Positions 5,612 to 63,310 of a stretch of DNA of 64,000 nucleotides are shown here, piece by piece. Each line of letters opens with the position of its first letter. The first letter of the stretch is position 1. The translations under genes and the position numbers were made by a program. Source of the DNA: Salinivirga cyanobacteriivorans (GTDB lineage: Bacteria; Bacteroidota; Bacteroidia; Bacteroidales; Salinivirgaceae); assembly GCF_001443605.1 (NCBI RefSeq), contig NZ_CP013118.1, positions 2,723,501-2,787,500 of the forward strand, read 5' to 3'. The notes below the pieces were generated by a model. The model searched no databases. It had not been told where the DNA came from and saw only the letters and a list, made by a program, of their open reading frames with translations.

Positions 5612-6592
5612 ATGTTGTGCATAAAATCAACAACTCAAAATCCGGCATTTAATCTGGCAACTGAGGAGTATTTATTGAGAAATAAAGAGGAAGAGTGTTT
5701 TTACCTTTATATAAACGGCCCTTCAATAATCGTAGGAAAACATCAGAATACCCTGGCAGAGATTAACATAGATTATGTGAAAGCACAAAATATTGATGTT
5801 ATCAGGCGCTTGTCCGGTGGTGGCGCTGTATTTCACGATCCGGGAAATCTTAATTTCACCTTCATTAAAAAAGGGGAAAAAGATCAACTGGTGGATTTCA
5901 GAAAGTATACACGTCCCATTTTAGATGTATTGCAAGCATTAGGCGTGAATGCACGCTTTGAGGGACGCAATGATTTAACTATAGATGGAAAAAAGTTTAG
6001 CGGTAATGCTGAACATGTCTATAAAAACAAAATTTTGCATCACGGCACATTACTTTTTAGTTCAAAACTACCCGATCTTTCGCAGGCCCTGAAAGTTAAT
6101 CCGCTTAAATACAAAGATAAGGCCGTTAAATCGGTTCGAAGCCGGGTTACCAATATCAGCGATCACCTGAAAGAAGCAATTACCTTGCAGGAATTCGAAG
6201 ATCGCATTATGACCCATATTCGCGACATGTATGCTGATAGCCGTATTTATGAACTTACAGAGGAAGATAAGCAAGGTATTCAGAAACTTGTAGATGAGAA
6301 GTTTGGCACCTGGGATTGGAACTTTGGTTATTCTCCTGAGTATAATTTCCAGAAAGGGATTAAAACCGAAGGCGGGCATATTGAGGTTAATCTTGATGTT
6401 AATAAAGGTATTATCCGAAAAGCTAAGATTTTTGGTGACTTTTTTAATACAAAGGACATCAGTGAGGTGGAATCTCTTTTAATAAATACACCACATGAAT
6501 ATAAACATTTAAAAGAGCAGCTGAGTCGTATTGATGTGAGTCAGTATTTTTCAAAAGTTACGAGAGAAGAATTCTTGGAAGGTTTGTTTTAA
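5612..6592 (+). CDS. lplA: Lipoate-protein ligase A
   Basis: LplA activates free lipoate with ATP and attaches it to lysines of E2 and GcvH domains in the cytoplasm. The substrate-binding signature RRLSGGGAVFHDPGNLNFTF is near residues 64-83. GKKFSGNAEHV near residue 128 carries the lysine expected to contact lipoyl-AMP. The length of 326 aa includes the C-terminal accessory domain of stand-alone LplA; the shorter LipB transferases lack it. The ATG start is about 20 nt past any upstream in-frame alternative, with a 147-nt leader region after the previous gene. It is 18 nt upstream of mnmD, so the two may be co-transcribed. Confidence 0.92.
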   Translation: MLCIKSTTQNPAFNLATEEYLLRNKEEECFYLYINGPSIIVGKHQNTLAEINIDYVKAQNIDVIRRLSGGGAVFHDPGNLNFTFIKKGEKDQLVDFRKYTRPILDVLQALGVNARFEGRNDLTIDGKKFSGNAEHVYKNKILHHGTLLFSSKLPDLSQALKVNPLKYKDKAVKSVRSRVTNISDHLKEAITLQEFEDRIMTHIRDMYADSRIYELTEEDKQGIQKLVDEKFGTWDWNFGYSPEYNFQKGIKTEGGHIEVNLDVNKGIIRKAKIFGDFFNTKDISEVESLLINTPHEYKHLKEQLSRIDVSQYFSKVTREEFLEGLF

Positions 6593-54276: not shown

Positions 54277-55692
54277 ATGAATAAAAAGCTACTTACCCTA
54301 AAATATGTATTATTTGATTTGCTGGCCGCGGCTATTAGCTGGGGCCTGTTTTACAGTTACCGTAAAATATATGTGGAGCACTTTCCTATTGAAAAAATAC
54401 ACCTGGGAAATGACGACACTTTTTTCCTTGGGCTAAGCATTATACCATTTTTTTGGTTGGCACTCTATTATTTTACGGGTGAATATCGAAACTTGTTAAG
54501 AAAGTCGCGATTGCAGGAACTGGCATCTACATTTAAGCTTGTGCTTGTTGGTTCGGTAATATTGTTTTTCATTCTAATACTGGATGATTATATCTCATCC
54601 TATAAAAACTATTACAGTTCTTTTTTCACATTGTTCTCCCTGCAATTTGTATTTACCTATATTCCCAGGTTAACTATTACCAGTTCGACAATACGTAAAA
54701 TGCGTCGGGGCGAGTTTTCTTTCAATACACTCATTATAGGTGCCCGGGAAAAAGCTGTTGGTTTAATAAAAGAAATGAGCAATAAACCTAAGTCATCCGG
54801 AAATAAGTTTATTGGGTTTGTACCTTTGGAGCCGCAGGAACAATATCCTTTAGAAGAATATTTGCCCAAACTCGGCGATTCATTAGAAGATATTAATACG
54901 ATTGTAAAAGAATACAAAGTAGATGAGGTAATTATATCGCTCGATTATCAGGAAAAAAATAAACTAGAAAAGGTTATTTCCCGGCTGGAGCTATTGCATA
55001 CACGAACCTTAATGCAACCTGATCTTTACGATATTCTTACCGGACATGTTCAGACCACATCGCTATACAGCATTCCTCTTTTGGAGGTTACACATGAACT
55101 TATGCCCCCCTGGCAGGAGAATGTGAAACGATTTCTTGATGTGGTTTTTTCAATTATTGCTATGATTATTTTAATTCCCTTATACCTGGGTATTTCAATA
55201 GCTATTAAAGCAAATTCCAAAGGGCCTGTTTTTTATTCTCATACGCGTATAGGCCGGTTTGGAAAACCATTCACCATTTATAAATTTCGTTCTATGGTGG
55301 TCGATGCTGAGAAAAACGGACCGCAGCTTTCAAATCATACAGATAATAGAATTACAAGTGTGGGACGGTTTTTACGTAAAACCCGCCTAGACGAAATTCC
55401 CCAGTTTTATAACGTGGTACTGGGCAACATGTCTCTGGTTGGGCCAAGGCCTGAGCGCCAGTTTTTTATTGATCAAATTGTGGAGCGTGCACCACATTAT
55501 TATCATCTGTTGCGGGTTCGACCTGGTATTACATCTCTTGGACAGGTAAAATATGGTTATGCAGAAAATGTTGATCAGATGATTGAACGGTTGCGTTACG
55601 ACATTATTTATATTGAAAATATGTCGCTATATGTCGACTTTAAAATCATGATCTATACTATAAAAACCATTTTTGAAGCCAGCGGTAAATAG
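54277..55692 (+). CDS. Polyprenyl-phosphate sugar-1-phosphate transferase (WcaJ/WbaP-type)
   Basis: 471 aa. Four or five N-terminal helices (to ~residue 130), a Rossmann-like region (~145-260), then the catalytic bacterial sugar transferase domain (~285-471). Its membrane hook is RFLDVVFSIIAMIILIPLYL. The catalytic core is TIYKFRSMVVDAEKNG, RLDEIPQFYNVVLGNMSLVG and the final RPE with RVRPGITSLGQVKYGYAE. It transfers a sugar-1-phosphate to undecaprenyl phosphate to start a surface polysaccharide. Its last 25 codons plus stop lie inside the 166-bp repeat copied 7.5 kb away, but this copy is complete. Confidence 0.9.
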   Translation: MNKKLLTLKYVLFDLLAAAISWGLFYSYRKIYVEHFPIEKIHLGNDDTFFLGLSIIPFFWLALYYFTGEYRNLLRKSRLQELASTFKLVLVGSVILFFILILDDYISSYKNYYSSFFTLFSLQFVFTYIPRLTITSSTIRKMRRGEFSFNTLIIGAREKAVGLIKEMSNKPKSSGNKFIGFVPLEPQEQYPLEEYLPKLGDSLEDINTIVKEYKVDEVIISLDYQEKNKLEKVISRLELLHTRTLMQPDLYDILTGHVQTTSLYSIPLLEVTHELMPPWQENVKRFLDVVFSIIAMIILIPLYLGISIAIKANSKGPVFYSHTRIGRFGKPFTIYKFRSMVVDAEKNGPQLSNHTDNRITSVGRFLRKTRLDEIPQFYNVVLGNMSLVGPRPERQFFIDQIVERAPHYYHLLRVRPGITSLGQVKYGYAENVDQMIERLRYDIIYIENMSLYVDFKIMIYTIKTIFEASGK

Positions 55693-55780
55693 GTAGCTAG
55701 TATTTAGCCACAATAGGATACCTGCGACCCATTCCGAATGCTTTTGATGAAACTCTCAGTATAGGCGGAAACTGGTAACG
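55615..55780. repeat. 166-bp direct repeat, copy 1
   Basis: Identical base for base to 63145-63310 (offset 7530). It carries the last 25 codons and stop of the sugar transferase, a 4-bp spacer and, in reverse, the last 27 codons and stop of nadE. The nadE part here is an orphan copy. Up to 5 bp (GAAAA) at the left edge may be shared with the inverted end of repeat B. Confidence 0.97.
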
Positions 55781-56329
55781 CTCCTGTTTTGTGCATTGGG
55801 ACACCCACATTTAATTTCTATAAAAGCTATTTTTCTATTTGGTCATAAACCTACTTTTTTTGCTACAGGTCAAAAAAAGTAGGCAAAAAAACCCCGCCGC
55901 TTACAGAAAAATGCTAAAAACCTGCTCATTATGACTAAAGTTTACGAACTCACACCGATTTTTTCTGAAAAATCGGTGCTCAAACAGCGCAAACTTTGAC
56001 GCCATAATGAACAGGTTTTCTTAACGCATTTTTCTTCATGCGGCTATAAAAGCAACTGTTATCCACTACATCAACGACAAGGCCCAAAGCGGGTTGGCCC
56101 GATCAAATTGGCGGGCTAGCGTTAGCGTGAATGATCAATAAACATAAATGACATAAAAGAGGCTTGTCCAGCTTTTATATGTCATTTAGTTTATTGAACA
56201 GAGCGGGTGGAAGCGTAATTTGATCTAGACTTTTTTGCAACTTTTTTTGTCATAAAAAAAAGTTGGTTGTAAAAAGTTAACTTTTTCTATGATGAGATAA
56301 AGTGGGTCATGCATTGCACAAAACGGGAG
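55781..56329. repeat. Structured repeat A with imperfect terminal inverted ends
   Basis: Left end CTCCTGTTTTGTGCA (55781-55795) and right end (56315-56329) match in 14 of 15 positions. The interior is a chain of hairpins: 12-bp CCTACTTTTTTT stem at 55850-55883; a ~149-nt imperfect foldback 55896-56044 with an inner 11-bp stem (55953-55978); arms GATCAAATT/AATTTGATC at 56101 and 56217; and a CAAC-poly(T) stem at 56238-56265. 55782-56109 is 327/328 identical to 62194-62521. No coding sequence. Confidence 0.85.
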
Positions 56330-56580
56330 GAATTTTAAATTAGAAGATTGCTTTATCCGGGATTTTCGGGTTAGGGCTTGGCTAAAAGTTAAAGCGTCAT
56401 GCTTCAGTGCTGTGAATCGGGTTCTGTTTGCAGACTGGCTCAGATTTTTGGCTACAAGTCATCTGGTGAATTGATCCTTGCCTTTTGATTGATGCAAACT
56501 GTTTCGAAAAGTTAGCAAGTTATTCACCAGATGGCTGGCAATCTACCAATCGCAGGCCGACTCGGAGTCGGTATGCGATT
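56328..56580. repeat. 253-bp direct repeat C1
   Basis: About 98% identical to 61796-62048 (offset 5468), same orientation. Arms CATCTGGTGAAT (56460-56471) and ATTCACCAGATG (56522-56533) can pair across a ~50-nt loop. A 9-bp palindrome at the end (GACTCGGAGTC) also occurs. A short open frame inside is shared by both copies, but nothing supports translation. It starts directly at the end of repeat A. Confidence 0.85.
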
Positions 56581-56644
56581 TCCAGAAAAAGCAAGTCCGA
56601 AGCGAAGTGCCCCGGACCTGGTTTTATTGCAGCTGTTACTATTT

Positions 56645-59600
56645 TTAGTTTACAACGATGCTTTGTGTATGTAGGGTTGTAAGATTTTGATCTATTTTGA
56701 TGAAGTAAATTCCATCAGGTAAATCTTCCATATTGACCGTTTCCTGATATTGAACTGAATTGCTCATTTCATGATGCAATGCCCTGATTAGTTTACCTGC
56801 ACTGTTGTAAATTTTAACAGCAACAGTGCCTGCCTGGTGAAAATTGCAGGTAATATTCAGAGTGTTTTGTACCGGGTTTGGGTAAATGTCTACCTCCCCG
56901 GTTGGTAAATCTGAATTTGTTTCATTCGGTTGCTGTACAATTTCTTCTGCGTCATTGGGCATGCCACCTATTTCATCTAAGAGTTTTTTGCGATTTCGGG
57001 TATACAATTCAAAGGTTTTAGGGATCATTTCCTGGAACTTGAAACTTGCAGATGCGGCTTTCCCGTTTTCCTCCATCATGTAACTGACTTTTCCGGCATC
57101 AATAACCGCGTAAATAGAATCTTCCGGTGTGGGAGGATCAGCAATAATGTCCTCATAGAAACTTAAAGCAGCCTGGTAATTTTCCATATAAACCCTGCAA
57201 TCGGCTGTGAGGTAACCTGCAAGTTTTTTCAACTCTTCATCCTGTTGAATATTGCTGTTGGTATTATAATAATTGATAAGCTGATTCAAATTATTAAGTT
57301 GCACAGCAATAGCCGGCATCATCTTCATGGCAGTGGATGCGAAGCTTGATTCGGGCCATGTGCTTACAATGGATTGCAATTGGGCTTCTGCACCTGTGTA
57401 GTCAGCATCTTCAACTTCATTTATTGCTGTTTCATAAGCAATCATGGGAGCAGAGGGATCATCCAGAGCTTCGCCAAATTCACAATCCCATGGCGGAAAA
57501 AATGTAAAAGACTTGAGCGGAACAAGGTCTTCCTGTGGCACAAAGTTATCGCCCCAGCAGTTATTACTTACATCATGAACAAAGGTCTTAACTTCCTGGC
57601 AATATATTAGTGGATACGAACTACTTGTTTTTTGCACAATATTCCACCTAAAATACCACGGAAAACTATTATCTGTGGCAATAATTTGGTTTTTACGGTT
57701 GTTGTATATTTGCTGACTGCCGGTTTTAGAATCTCCATACATCTCCACGGTGCTCTTGTGAAAAATACCTGCACCATAATCGTTCTCATAAATACGGTTA
57801 TGATTCACCCTGGTTACGGAAGAATAAATTAATAAGCCCTTTGAATTGCCAGTGCCATAATTGTAACGGATGGTATTCCCGGTTACATCATGTTTTTTCA
57901 TGGCTTCGTTGCCGGTGTAATATAAAGCAATGCCATTGCCGGAATTGTTTTCAACCACATTATTGGTTATTGCATAACTCAAATAAGACTCTACCCGCAA
58001 TGCTGATGTGTTCGGACTAAAGTTAAACACGTTATTATCCACAACACAGTTTTCCTGTTTTTCTCCCTCTAAATATAGTGAAGACCCTGTAAAAGAACTG
58101 TTTCGAATCTCTGCCGGTGCATTCCTTGATTTAATGTGGGTATGGGTATTGATGAAAATCACGTTATCGAACGTAACCGCCTGGCCATTATATATTTCCA
58201 CATATCCGGTTCCATCATGGGTAAAATTTTTAATGGTTGTATTTGGCCCACAACTAAAAGGGCCATTAATAACCAGTATATTTCCGGAACTGGTCCCCTC
58301 TATAGTCGCACCCTCTTCCAGCGTAAGGGAAGCGCTACTTTCGAAAGTTACCGCATCTTCGATGATGAGGGTGCCGCCTCCCTGAACCATAATGGCAATA
58401 TTCGACAAACTCTGGTCTGACAATTTAAGACATCCATTTACAATTACCTTACCGGTTTGAGTTGTTCCATGCAAACCAATATTTGGACCACAAGCTAATT
58501 GCGCATTGTTTTCTATAACTAAATTTCCATTTGTAACAAAGTTGGTACTTGTGTATTCACTTTGGAAAAAAACATCATTTGTTATGTTACAATAACTATT
58601 TTCATTAATGGTTAAGGCAACATCATCCTTTAAAACCACAGTGTTGTTGGATAACAATATTGTATCAAAATCTGTGACCTTTACATCTTTATTAATTGGT
58701 ATTGTATCCGTATCAGAAAAGTCGATAGTTTCATCAATTACTGATGGAATATAAAAATAATCTATAAGAAGGTTCTGGGTGGCTTCCAAAGTATCAATAT
58801 AAACATTGCTTTGTTCCCCTTCAATTTCGACCCTAACGCCGTCATTATCGATCATTCCATAGTATAAGACATTTCCCTCAAAGTATATACAAGTATCCAT
58901 GGGCCATTCATAAACCTTAATTGCGATTCCATCACCGTATTGTTTATCCCAATATTGTTCACTAGAAAAATCAAAAAGCATTTCAATAGGTTCTTGGTTT
59001 ATTCCTTGCATTGACAAAACACCTCCATTAGCTAATACCCAATTGCCTTCCCATTTAGAATCAGGCGGTTCATCACCCATATAAAAACTGAGAAGTTCTC
59101 TGTTATTATGCTCAAACTCCGCTTCTAATAATAGTTTTGGGTCATAGTCAGTTATAACATCAATTACATAAACTTTCTGGTTGTCTATTGGGTATGGATG
59201 GCTTGTAACAAAACTAGAATTCGGGTGATTTATATCAGGTTTAGCCAATAAACGGTATGGCAAATATAAAAATCCCGAATCACTAGCCAAAGTTGAATTA
59301 GGACGTTGCAACCAATTCACTCCAGAACTTCCTGCTAGTTTTAGAGCTCCAATTTCCCACTCGCGCATATCCACGGTATCGTCGTTATTTATATCTATAT
59401 CATTCGTAAATACACCATCGCCATTGAAATCATATTTGATAAGGTCATTATACCCAACAAAGGTCATTTCATGTCCATGTCCTTCGGGATTTCCTGCCGA
59501 ATCTGTTTGATAAATCATATCCTTAATTAAGGTTTTCCCTGCATCAAAAGATTCCGGTGGTAATTCTACAAGAGAGTCGTAGTTATTCATGTATGTGACA

Positions 59601-60231
59601 AATACAGCTAACCCACCTGTTGAATCCCCTTTTCCGTGGTCGTTAATCCAATGCTTTAAATTATTTAAACCTTGTGGGGTGGCAACATTAATTGTATTTA
59701 TACTTTCCACCTTATTTGCAAGAGCTTGCTCATACTTATCATAACCTGTCATCCATCTCCTCGGATCCTCTTGAAATGATCCAAAAGTGGCAACATCGGC
59801 GCATCCCATCACTTCAGCTGTCTCGAAACCTGATAGAGGAAAGGTGGGATTGTGTCCTCCATTAGCATTCATATTATAGGTGAAGGAAATTGAAAAAAGG
59901 GATGTTGAATCATTTTCATCAAATGCCATATCACGCATCCTATTAACCTCATACGTAAAAGTATAGCCAATCTCCGCTGAATGAGCACATGCCATTGGTA
60001 ATCCCTGGAAAATTGAACGAAAATAGGGTAATTCAGAATTATCTACAAAGTCGGGAAGTGTTGTATTCGCAGATTTCACATTGTAAGGTAACTGGGGAAT
60101 ACTATCCAGATAGTTTAAACGAGTTTGGTCAGGAACCAGTACCCCCCCCCATTTAAAATTTCTTGTGCAAGAACCGGGCCTGCAAAGAGGAAGTTGAATA
60201 AAAATAAAGTAATAAAAACATGTTTTTTCAT
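56645..60231 (-). CDS. T9SS-exported papain-like / beta-helix protein, frame-split by a G9 tract
   Basis: The start ATG at 60231 gives a clear signal peptide (MKKHVFITLFLFNFLFAG, PVLAQ), but nine G residues at 60150-60142 throw the frame onto a stop 30 nt later. With 10 (or 7) Gs the frame joins the 1144-aa frame below. That frame has a papain-like domain: catalytic Cys in LPMACAHSAEIGYTFTYEVN, His in GHGHEMTFVGYND, while the usual Asn-Ser-Trp-Gly site is SSGVNW. A calcium-loop insert begins DFNGDGVFTNDIDIN. A right-handed beta-helix (~570-860), a TPR-like region (~920-1040) and a C-terminal type A sorting domain (VDIYPNPVQNTLNI to the C-terminal VVN) follow. Probable export and surface attachment. 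Cys peptidase activity is inferred and the Asn loss makes it uncertain. It starts 12 nt after the BNR gene. Confidence 0.8.
60142..60150 (-). repeat. Nine-G homopolymer, putative phase-variation tract
   Basis: A run of 9 Cs on the plus strand is 9 Gs in the gene, 28 codons from the start and directly past the signal peptide. As given the frame is OFF; G10 or G7 is ON. Confidence 0.75.
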
Positions 60232-60243
60232 AATGCAGTAGTT

Positions 60244-61467
60244 TTAGTGTTTAATAAATAATTGATTAAAAGTGGTGCTGGAATTTCTGATTCTTATGAT
60301 ATATGTGCCACCTGGAAGAGCTGAAACATCTATGCTATTTAAATCTTGGTTTAAACTTTTCGATAAAACCTGTTGGCCATTTATCTTGTAAATTAGTAGC
60401 TCTGATATAGAGATATTGGAATTCAGTTTTATATTTATTCGATCATGTGCAGGGTTTGGATAAATTAGTGGTTGATCTACTGAGAAATCACTATTATGCG
60501 AATTATGCACCGTTACCGCATCTATGCTGCGATAAATTTTATCTTGTGATCCATCGCTCACGGCGTACAAATGGCCATCCTTACCCAGTTCAAGTTTGTA
60601 AATAGCCGGGTATTCAATTCCGTTTGTTACATCCTGCCAGGTATCACCAGCATCAGGTGACATCAATACACCGGGAGTTGTCAGTTCAAATCCATGACTG
60701 GCCGCATAAATAGTATCACCAGGAGTTACAACTAATCCAGTCACTGATAAATCATCCCGAAGGGTATCCCATGTTGCACCCAAATCAGTAGATTTGAATA
60801 CACCCCCTTCAAAAGCATACATTTTATTGTAGCAGCCTACATAAAGCTCACCCGATGAACCAATTCTTATTATATCATTACTAAAATATTCAAGTGCAAA
60901 CTTGTCCCAGGTTTCTCCTTCATCCTCACTTTTATAGAGTCCACTTATTGTATATGCATCATAAGACAACGACCCGGCAAATAATATCCCTGATGGATGT
61001 TGAGCAATAGATTGAAATGATTCATTAAGACCTCCTTCATAAATTTCATCCCAGGTGCAGCCTCCATCAACGGATTTTGAAATTGACTGAAAACCACCTG
61101 AAAATATAATAGTATCATTAATAAAACAAAAAAAATCAGAAGTATGCCCCCGGTTGTTAATTTGTTCCCACTCACCCTCTATTCCAATGCGTCGATAAAT
61201 AATACCGCGGGTGACAGCGTAATAGGTATTTTTATAGGTCATTAAATATACCAATGAAGGACTTTCAATTTCATGTTGCCAGGTTTCTGCTCCGTCATAC
61301 GTGGTGTATAAACCTGCAGATCCGCAAATCATGGTAATGTTCTCATTGATACCATAAATATCATTCACCTGAACATTATCGGGCAAAGGAATTTCCTCCC
61401 AAAAGTCCTGAGAAAACAGGGGTCGGGCGAATAAAAACAATAACAAGAATAAAATAAAAGTGCGCAT
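60244..61467 (-). CDS. Secreted BNR-repeat protein with T9SS sorting domain
   Basis: 407 aa with a signal peptide (residues 1-20, ending ...LFSQ). Residues ~25-310 carry BNR/Asp-box blades such as TTYDGAETWQHEI, KSVDGGCTWDEIYEGG, KSEDEGETWDKF and MSPDAGDTWQDV. The C-terminal 80 residues form a type A sorting domain (PLIYPNPAHDRINIKLNSNI to the end). This is the usual layout of T9SS-exported propellers; a substrate is not evident. It is the first of a two-gene minus-strand unit, 12 nt before the papain-like gene. Confidence 0.88.
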   Translation of the reverse strand: MRTFILFLLLFLFARPLFSQDFWEEIPLPDNVQVNDIYGINENITMICGSAGLYTTYDGAETWQHEIESPSLVYLMTYKNTYYAVTRGIIYRRIGIEGEWEQINNRGHTSDFFCFINDTIIFSGGFQSISKSVDGGCTWDEIYEGGLNESFQSIAQHPSGILFAGSLSYDAYTISGLYKSEDEGETWDKFALEYFSNDIIRIGSSGELYVGCYNKMYAFEGGVFKSTDLGATWDTLRDDLSVTGLVVTPGDTIYAASHGFELTTPGVLMSPDAGDTWQDVTNGIEYPAIYKLELGKDGHLYAVSDGSQDKIYRSIDAVTVHNSHNSDFSVDQPLIYPNPAHDRINIKLNSNISISELLIYKINGQQVLSKSLNQDLNSIDVSALPGGTYIIRIRNSSTTFNQLFIKH

Positions 61468-61795
61468 AATATGAATTTCTTATTTATCACTAAGTTGGTG
61501 TTACGATTACTATATTAAGCAGGGATTTGGTCATATACGAATTAACAGCTCCATATTGCTTGCATTTAAACCTGACTTTTACTATAAATTTCCAAATACA
61601 TTTATTCAAAAACAAATTTTTCATAGACAATTTTCCAACAAATTCAGTATCTTTTGTTTGCGAAAATATGGCATTGCACAACAGTGTGTTATAATTTAAA
61701 CTATTGTACCCGTGTTCGACATAATCGAACCAAAATAAACAATGTTACAAGAGGTCGGTTTTTTATAAATAATTCGTGATATAAACATTAATAAA
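61468..61795. other. 328-bp intergenic upstream of the BNR gene
   Basis: No convincing gene. A 63-codon frame on the minus strand has unlikely composition and no ribosome binding site. A small hairpin GTTCGA/TCGAAC lies at 61714-61730. The promoter of the BNR/papain pair should be here, but only one-mismatch -7 candidates are visible. Confidence 0.4.
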
Positions 61796-62048
61796 AGGAA
61801 TTTTAAATTAGAAGATTGCTTTATCCGGGATTTTTGGGAGAGGGCTTGGCTAAAAGTTAAAGCGTCATGCTTCAGTGCTGTGAATCGGGTTCTGTTTGCA
61901 GACTGGCTCAGATTTTTGGCTACAAGTCATCTGGTGAATTGATCCTTGCCTTTTGATTGATGCAAACTGTTTCGAAAAGTTAGCAAGTTATTCACCAGAT
62001 GGCTGGCATTCTACCAATCGCAGGCCGACTCCGAGTCGGTATGCGATT
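61796..62048. repeat. 253-bp direct repeat C2
   Basis: Second copy of C1 with a few substitutions, including GACTCCGAGTC for GACTCGGAGTC in the terminal palindrome. It is followed by 146 bp of unmatched sequence, then repeat B. Confidence 0.85.
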
Positions 62049-62190
62049 ATTGTCACGGCAGCTTATTTGGTAAATTTTTCAAATAGCGTTAAACCCTTGA
62101 GTCTGCTATTACCCATAATTTGTCGTCAGGACTGTACATTTTGATTATTCAAAGCGAAAGTAAAACAGCACAAGCTAAGTTCGCGGCTTT

Positions 62191-63149
62191 TTTTCCTGTT
62201 TTGTGCATTGGGACACCCACATTTAATTTCTATAAAAGCTATTTTTCTATTTGGTCATAAACCTACTTTTTTTGCTACAGGTCAAAAAAAGTAGGCAAAA
62301 AAACCCCGCCGCTTACAGAAAAATGCTAAAAACCTGCTCATTATGACTAAAGTTTACGAACTCACACCGATTTTTTCTGAAAAATCGGTGCTCAAACAGC
62401 GCAAACTTTGACGCCATAATGAACAGGTTTTCTTAACGCATTTTTCTTCATGCGGCTATAAAAGCAACTGTTATCCACTACATCAACGACAAGGCCCAAA
62501 GCGGGCTGGCCCGATCAAATTACTCGTAAACTTCCCGTTTTTCACGGGACAGGCTGTGAGGGCTAAAGCCGTAGGCGGGCCAGCGCCAGGGTGAATGTTC
62601 TACTCGAATTAATCCAAAAAATGATTGAAAATCATAATTATGGATTGTATGAGAGTAAATCCGGATATAGAAAATATTAGCAATTGCTGAAGGCAGTTGT
62701 GCTATATTTTCATAATCGGGGTTCAATCAATATAAATGACATAAAAGAGGCTTGTCCAGCTTTTATTATGTCATTTAATTTATTGAACAGAGCGGGGTGA
62801 AGCGTAATTTGATCTTGATTTTTTGCCCCACTTTTTTATCAAGAAAAAAGTGGGGAGGTCAATTGCTTACCAGAAGTTGCTATAATCAAATAACTTGTTA
62901 GTATACAGCTTATTGCGGTAATTGATAACTTTTAAGCAAATAACCCGAAGATTAATTTTCATCATTTTTCATAAGCTATTCATTAGTAGGATCTTAGGTG
63001 TTTGTGAAATAATTTTGAAATCGCTGCGCATTCGAAATCTATTAAAAAAATAAAGCGGGTCACCCAAAACAGAGATTTTTGTGAGTGTAAATTGCTACTA
63101 ATCAGCATATATTATCAGCGAAATACTATTCATGCACAAAACAGGAAAA
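62191..63149. repeat. Structured repeat B with a 17-bp perfect terminal inverted repeat
   Basis: Left end TTTTCCTGTTTTGTGCA (62191-62207) is perfectly complementary to 63133-63149. The first 328 bp are almost identical to repeat A. The later part is homologous but has two extra segments (~62522-62573 and ~62598-62725) and a stem CCCCACTTTTTT/AAAAAAGTGGGG (62826-62855) where A has a different CAAC-poly(T) stem. The last 4-5 bp overlap the start of the 166-bp repeat. No coding sequence. Confidence 0.82.
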
Positions 63150-63310
63150 TATGTCGCTATATGTCGACTTTAAAATCATGATCTATACTATAAAAACCAT
63201 TTTTGAAGCCAGCGGTAAATAGGTAGCTAGTATTTAGCCACAATAGGATACCTGCGACCCATTCCGAATGCTTTTGATGAAACTCTCAGTATAGGCGGAA
63301 ACTGGTAACG
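63145..63310. repeat. 166-bp direct repeat, copy 2
   Basis: Perfect copy of 55615-55780. Here the nadE part is the functional 3' end and the sugar transferase part is the orphan copy. It borders repeat B on its left. Confidence 0.97.

Follow-up and report, generated by a model that had tools for sequence, protein, structure and literature searches.

Homopolymer contingency loci are known from Helicobacter and from other pathogens. In Helicobacter they consist of poly-G or poly-C tracts subject to slipped-strand mispairing (PMC2823697). For phase variation in the Bacteroidales, the passages found in a review of the subject describe DNA inversions, and its main text uses neither 'slipped' nor 'homopolymer' (PMC12632263). 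Our literature search, conducted mostly among papers outside subscription, found none that deals with type IX secretion (T9SS) together with phase variation and simple sequence repeats. Here we consider a stretch of 64,000 nucleotides of the Salinivirga cyanobacteriivorans genome (NZ_CP013118.1, positions 2,723,501 to 2,787,500; hereafter the window, in whose coordinates its features are given) in which a run of nine Gs lies between the signal peptide and the body of a gene for a predicted T9SS cargo protein.

The tract occupies positions 60142-60150, where the plus strand has nine Cs and the minus, coding strand nine Gs, directly after the codon of Asn27. From the ATG at 60231 the signal frame reads MKKHVFITLFLFNFLFAGPVLAQEILNGGGYWFLTKLV and then meets a stop at 60115, which gives a short ORF of 38 aa (60115-60231, minus strand) made up of the signal peptide, called by eye and by alignment to relatives, and the tract. 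The body of the secreted protein lies in another frame (56645-60142, minus strand), which, starting at the final G of the tract, runs for 1165 codons without an internal stop to the stop at 56645, or for 1201 open codons when counted from stop to stop. A tract of 7 or 10 Gs places signal peptide and body in one frame, length 7 encoding exactly two glycines and a valine and length 10 three glycines and a valine. The exact tract and the translations agree with the original prediction that the two parts lie in different frames and meet at nine Gs, that one G gained or two lost would join them, and that the signal frame stops soon after the tract; the open body was also correctly predicted, but its size of 1144 aa is the count from the first GTG only, as against 1165 codons from the tract. 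A run of eight or more Gs is by itself not rare in the window, with 0.76 matches expected per shuffled window and the observed two reached in 15 of 100 shuffles; the unusual part is its position at a frame break. The longest G/C run of the window coincides with the only frame break noticed there. General homopolymer noise was rejected as a candidate, since about 60 coding runs in the window that are 6-8 bases long (A/T runs of 7-8 or G/C runs of 6) lie within open frames.

The G runs of related genomes, to which the original prediction had pointed, are short: a comparison of about 95 homologous stretches, taken from Bacteroidales and from other genomes, showed no run longer than six near the gene start, and in them the signal peptide is in frame with the body. 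Of the homologues examined, the window copy alone combines a poly-G run with a broken frame. Many homologues carry a Gly-Gly-(Val/Ile/Leu) motif a few residues past the signal peptide, written in mixed codons such as GGT GGA GTA or GGC GGA GTA, and according to both the exact run and the relatives' codons the window tract falls on this motif. Because the homologues read through with mixed glycine codons, we take the joined frame to be ancestral. Upstream of the signal-peptide ATG, across a gap of 12 bp, profile matches and gene order place a gene for a BNR/Sortilin-like protein of 407 aa with a T9SS tail (60244-61467, minus strand). A relative of this partner precedes the homologous gene in four other stretches (L036, L044, L059 and L077) and partly in two more (L039 and L045), and its recurrence upstream in several genomes therefore marks a conserved gene pair.

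The N-terminal domain of the window copy matched no Pfam family. Its predicted structure (pLDDT 88, pTM 0.90) gave, in a Foldseek comparison with the PDB, 235 matches to papain-like peptidases at E values up to 0.001 (best 2.2e-9; probability 1.00, target-normalised TM up to 0.74), and as modelled the domain (59063-60058) is papain-like in fold. Further along the same strand lie right-handed beta-helix or NosD-like repeats (57638-58204; PF05048 at 23.9 bits against a cut-off of 23.6, and PF13229 at 25.5 bits, just below its cut-off of 25.9) and a T9SS type A C-terminal sorting domain (56660-56887; PF18962, TIGR04183), whose 54.6 bits against a cut-off of 27, at body residues 1086-1161, bear out the full sorting tail that had been predicted. 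The genome also encodes the T9SS sortase PorU (NF033707, 1179.5 bits against a cut-off of 420). With a sorting domain at its C-terminus and a sortase in the genome, the protein has the marks of a T9SS type A cargo, and its product is predicted to be surface-exposed or secreted.

As for the active site, the window protein retains Cys52 and His224, which are conserved in 44 of 44 other sequences. The position aligned with the oxyanion Gln is Gly47 (Gln in all 44 others), the window protein having a Gln one position before it, and the position aligned with the catalytic Asn is Gly271 (41 Asn and 3 Asp among the 44). The protein has, in other words, the fold and the Cys/His pair of a papain-like (C1) peptidase but neither the oxyanion Gln nor the catalytic Asn. 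It deviates at 8 of 64 conserved columns, the most of 45 proteins (the next deviates at 6), in a test that is biased against it since the columns were picked for being conserved among the others (in 90% or more of them). An earlier test on 53 columns in 96 stretches put its deviations at 4, a count no higher than others reached, 20 stretches having as many or more. The absence of decay claimed in the original prediction thus holds for the frame, which has no second lesion, but not for the active site, which judging from the alignment is not typical.

The operon lies on a segment of 7.36 kb (55781-63144) that sequence comparison places between two identical 166-bp copies (55615-55780 and 63145-63310), with the edges TCCTGTTTTGTGCAT and ATGCACAAAACAGGA. 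The copies span the convergent junction of a sugar transferase gene and an NAD-synthetase-like gene, the latter named from a reading of its sequence and not from a family search. Short inverted sequences are found at the edges of the segment, and parts of it are members of dispersed repeats with 90 matches genome-wide. No second copy of the body that could act as a recombination partner was found in the genome, where the other matches are to the sorting tail only. The identity of the 166-bp copies suggests either that the segment arrived recently or that recombination has kept the copies alike, and for this reason the intact body is weak evidence of present selection. The claim that the body is under selection at least some of the time is consequently not proven by its intactness, as the operon between the duplications is perhaps a recent arrival and active-site residues are altered.

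Our preferred reading, held tentatively and with somewhat less than even confidence, takes the G9 run for genuine, prone to slippage and contingency-like. What the sequences establish is the tract itself, the frame break, the open body, the sorting domain, the conserved partner gene, the family motif and the presence in the genome of PorU and of MutS, which is complete and does not suggest a mutator. The locus has a slippable run inside the frame, a run length that sets the frame while the rest stays open, and a product predicted to be secreted. During replication the number of Gs would change, and with it whether the signal peptide is read in one frame with the papain-like/beta-helix surface protein that T9SS is to export. 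A cell carrying the assembled sequence would make the 38-aa peptide only and would not export the full protein, and lengths of 7 or 10 would yield the full pre-protein. We infer that different cells differ in tract length, that such changes can be undone and that the bacterium makes use of them; switching is plausible.

Switching finds its best apparent support in another genome of the same family (G003), which has two T9SS-cargo paralogues that are 87-88% identical (L290:5246-6726 and L291:5862-6521). In L290 the frame is broken exactly at a G9 (5810-5818), both flanking parts being otherwise open and the second having a T9SS sorting domain (44.4 bits) at its end; in L291 a G10 (6501-6510) stands at the same tract codon and is read in frame as GGGDLVK until the contig ends, 11-12 bases past the tract. 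A second poly-G site follows about 40 bases on, with G8 in L290 and G12 in L292, a contig of the same genome whose start falls inside a gene of this kind, and a homologue in another genome (G178) reads through and is without a G run. L290 and L291 are paralogues and not alleles, so that they speak for a tract whose length changes from copy to copy in step with the frame, and not for switching by cells. We also count in support of switching a second T9SS-type gene of Salinivirga (L123:3109-3720, near 4,738,152), which has a G10 at a frame break inside its signal peptide, MKKISIIIVIFILTMGGG, though its body, in the other frame, is damaged too, being interrupted by a stop and cut short. In genome G004 a rhodanese-domain protein has a G9 within its signal peptide, in frame. 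Against switching stand the read-through of 24 of the 25 coding G9+ tracts classified in other Bacteroidales, the end of L291 soon past its tract, the perhaps recent arrival of the segment, the altered active site and the complete MutS. The original prediction of a contingency locus thus stands as regards the anatomy, to which the paralogue pair adds support, but it has a strong competitor in a miscount or an ordinary frameshift, as breaks recur in this assembly at runs of 9-10 bases (L122, L123 and L259).

An assembly miscount, by which the true number of Gs would differ, the gene would be intact and expressed, and nothing would be switching at a useful rate, is the rival that survives best, and we consider it somewhat unlikely. 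Exact G/C runs number 22, 2, 6 and 2 genome-wide at lengths 7, 8, 9 and 10, and lengths 9-10 are more frequent than expected if numbers fell steadily from length 7 on by a ratio of up to 0.3. We count this excess in favour of a slippage-prone tract, and undercalling would not yield it. Eight G/C runs reach at least nine bases. Four of them seem to lie in genes (that of the window and those in L122, L123 and L116), and the remaining ones fall between genes, within sequence resembling group II introns or within CRISPR-like arrays. Two such arrays (L120 and L121, near 4,176,321 and 4,192,877) have a nearly identical C9 sequence at one end or inside, and a transposase-like gene adjoins that in L120. 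When runs were classified, by open frames and by eye on samples of the genome, three of the four coding tracts proved to lie at frame breaks, two of these in otherwise damaged genes: L123, described above, and an outer-membrane-type gene (L122:5610-6642, near 4,239,521) with a G9 at the frame break, a second frameshift upstream and an IS3-type transposase gene adjoining it. The fourth, in L116, reads through. It is a C9 near the end of an HTH gene (L116:3405-3692), just upstream of genes for a small Cys-rich peptide and a radical-SAM-like protein, and the neighbourhood is possibly a peptide natural product locus.

In other Bacteroidales 24 of the 25 coding G9+ tracts classified read through, which speaks against coding G9 runs being commonly found in the off state; the exception is a small zinc-ribbon-like gene of genome G024 that is apparently frame-broken at its G9 run (L198:1530-1538). 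The difference from the three of four found here (Fisher p 0.004; 0.15 once the two tracts whose genes are damaged elsewhere are set aside) favours assembly miscounts or ordinary decay in this genome. An unusual richness of Salinivirga in poly-G was rejected, other Bacteroidales having comparable or higher G9 counts. Miscounting is further suggested by a DUF2075-like gene (L259, near 1,586,770) whose frame is lost at an A9 run and a second time through a shift of one base, and that is either a pseudogene or the result of assembly errors. In a survey of frame transitions, one class of isolated frameshifted genes is expected to reflect sequencing errors and not genuine indels (PMC3711429), which keeps the weight of the miscount high. 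However, nine other A9 or C9 runs in open frames (L116, L137, L141, L225, L235, L241, L242, L248 and L251) read through, as do the shorter runs of the window, and two of the three breaks at coding G9+ tracts are in genes that are damaged in other ways too.

Slippage at the run explains the break under every reading but the miscount, and a slippage indel at the longest homopolymer could also have inactivated an accessory gene for good, with decay now beginning. We think such a recent, fixed loss unlikely. It would be in keeping with the further damage in the genes of the other two G9-G10 breaks, with the changed catalytic Asn and Gln and the deviation at conserved columns, and with an operon that sits between identical duplications. 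At a substitution divergence below about 0.005, moreover, an unselected body would often still be free of stops and indels. What weighs against fixed loss is the lack of a second lesion in 1165 codons, together with the bias of the deviation test and the unexceptional place of the window protein in the earlier one. Pseudo-peptidases, besides, can be functional. Recoding, in which a minus-one ribosomal slip on the heptamer G GGG GGG, contained in the zero frame of the nine Gs, would enter the body frame, or RNA polymerase slippage would act, so that G9 gives some full-length protein, is very improbable, and a programmed ribosomal frameshift was rejected, since the sequence downstream of the tract folds no more stably than its shuffles (z 0.65) and no relative conserves the slippery run or uses an out-of-frame body.

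If the contingency-like reading of the window tract is right, a Bacteroidales bacterium varies a T9SS cargo by homopolymer slippage. The work provides concrete poly-G loci in two genera. If the number of Gs has been miscounted, a gene has been wrongly called broken. A broader proposal, that poly-G tracts serve in the Salinivirgaceae as on/off switches for T9SS-exported surface proteins and were acquired independently by different gene families (that of the window gene, that of L290/L291 and possibly that of L123), would add a slippage-based layer of phase variation to an order known mainly for DNA inversion, but seems to us doubtful.

Among described systems, the window gene resembles the contingency loci of the Helicobacter type in having a poly-G tract in the 5' part of a surface-protein gene, a frame set by tract length and an otherwise open reading frame; it differs from them in its Bacteroidales host, in its T9SS cargo product and in being known here from one assembled sequence. 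With the inversion systems it shares the bacterial order and the surface location of the products, but the window locus is without an inversion. Its closest protein relatives are the T9SS type A papain-like cargo proteins, encountered here in Bacteroidales and in other MAGs, which likewise have a signal peptide and a papain-like domain, in part also the beta-helix and sorting domain, and in several cases the BNR partner; unlike the rest of that family, the window copy has a poly-G tract and a broken frame and lacks the aligned Gln and Asn. The G003 paralogues come from the same bacterial family and are alike in the T9SS tail of the broken copy and in a G9 break with both parts otherwise open, whereas their body is not recognisably related to that of the window gene, their tract lies in the middle of the gene, and they form a pair of which one member is in frame.
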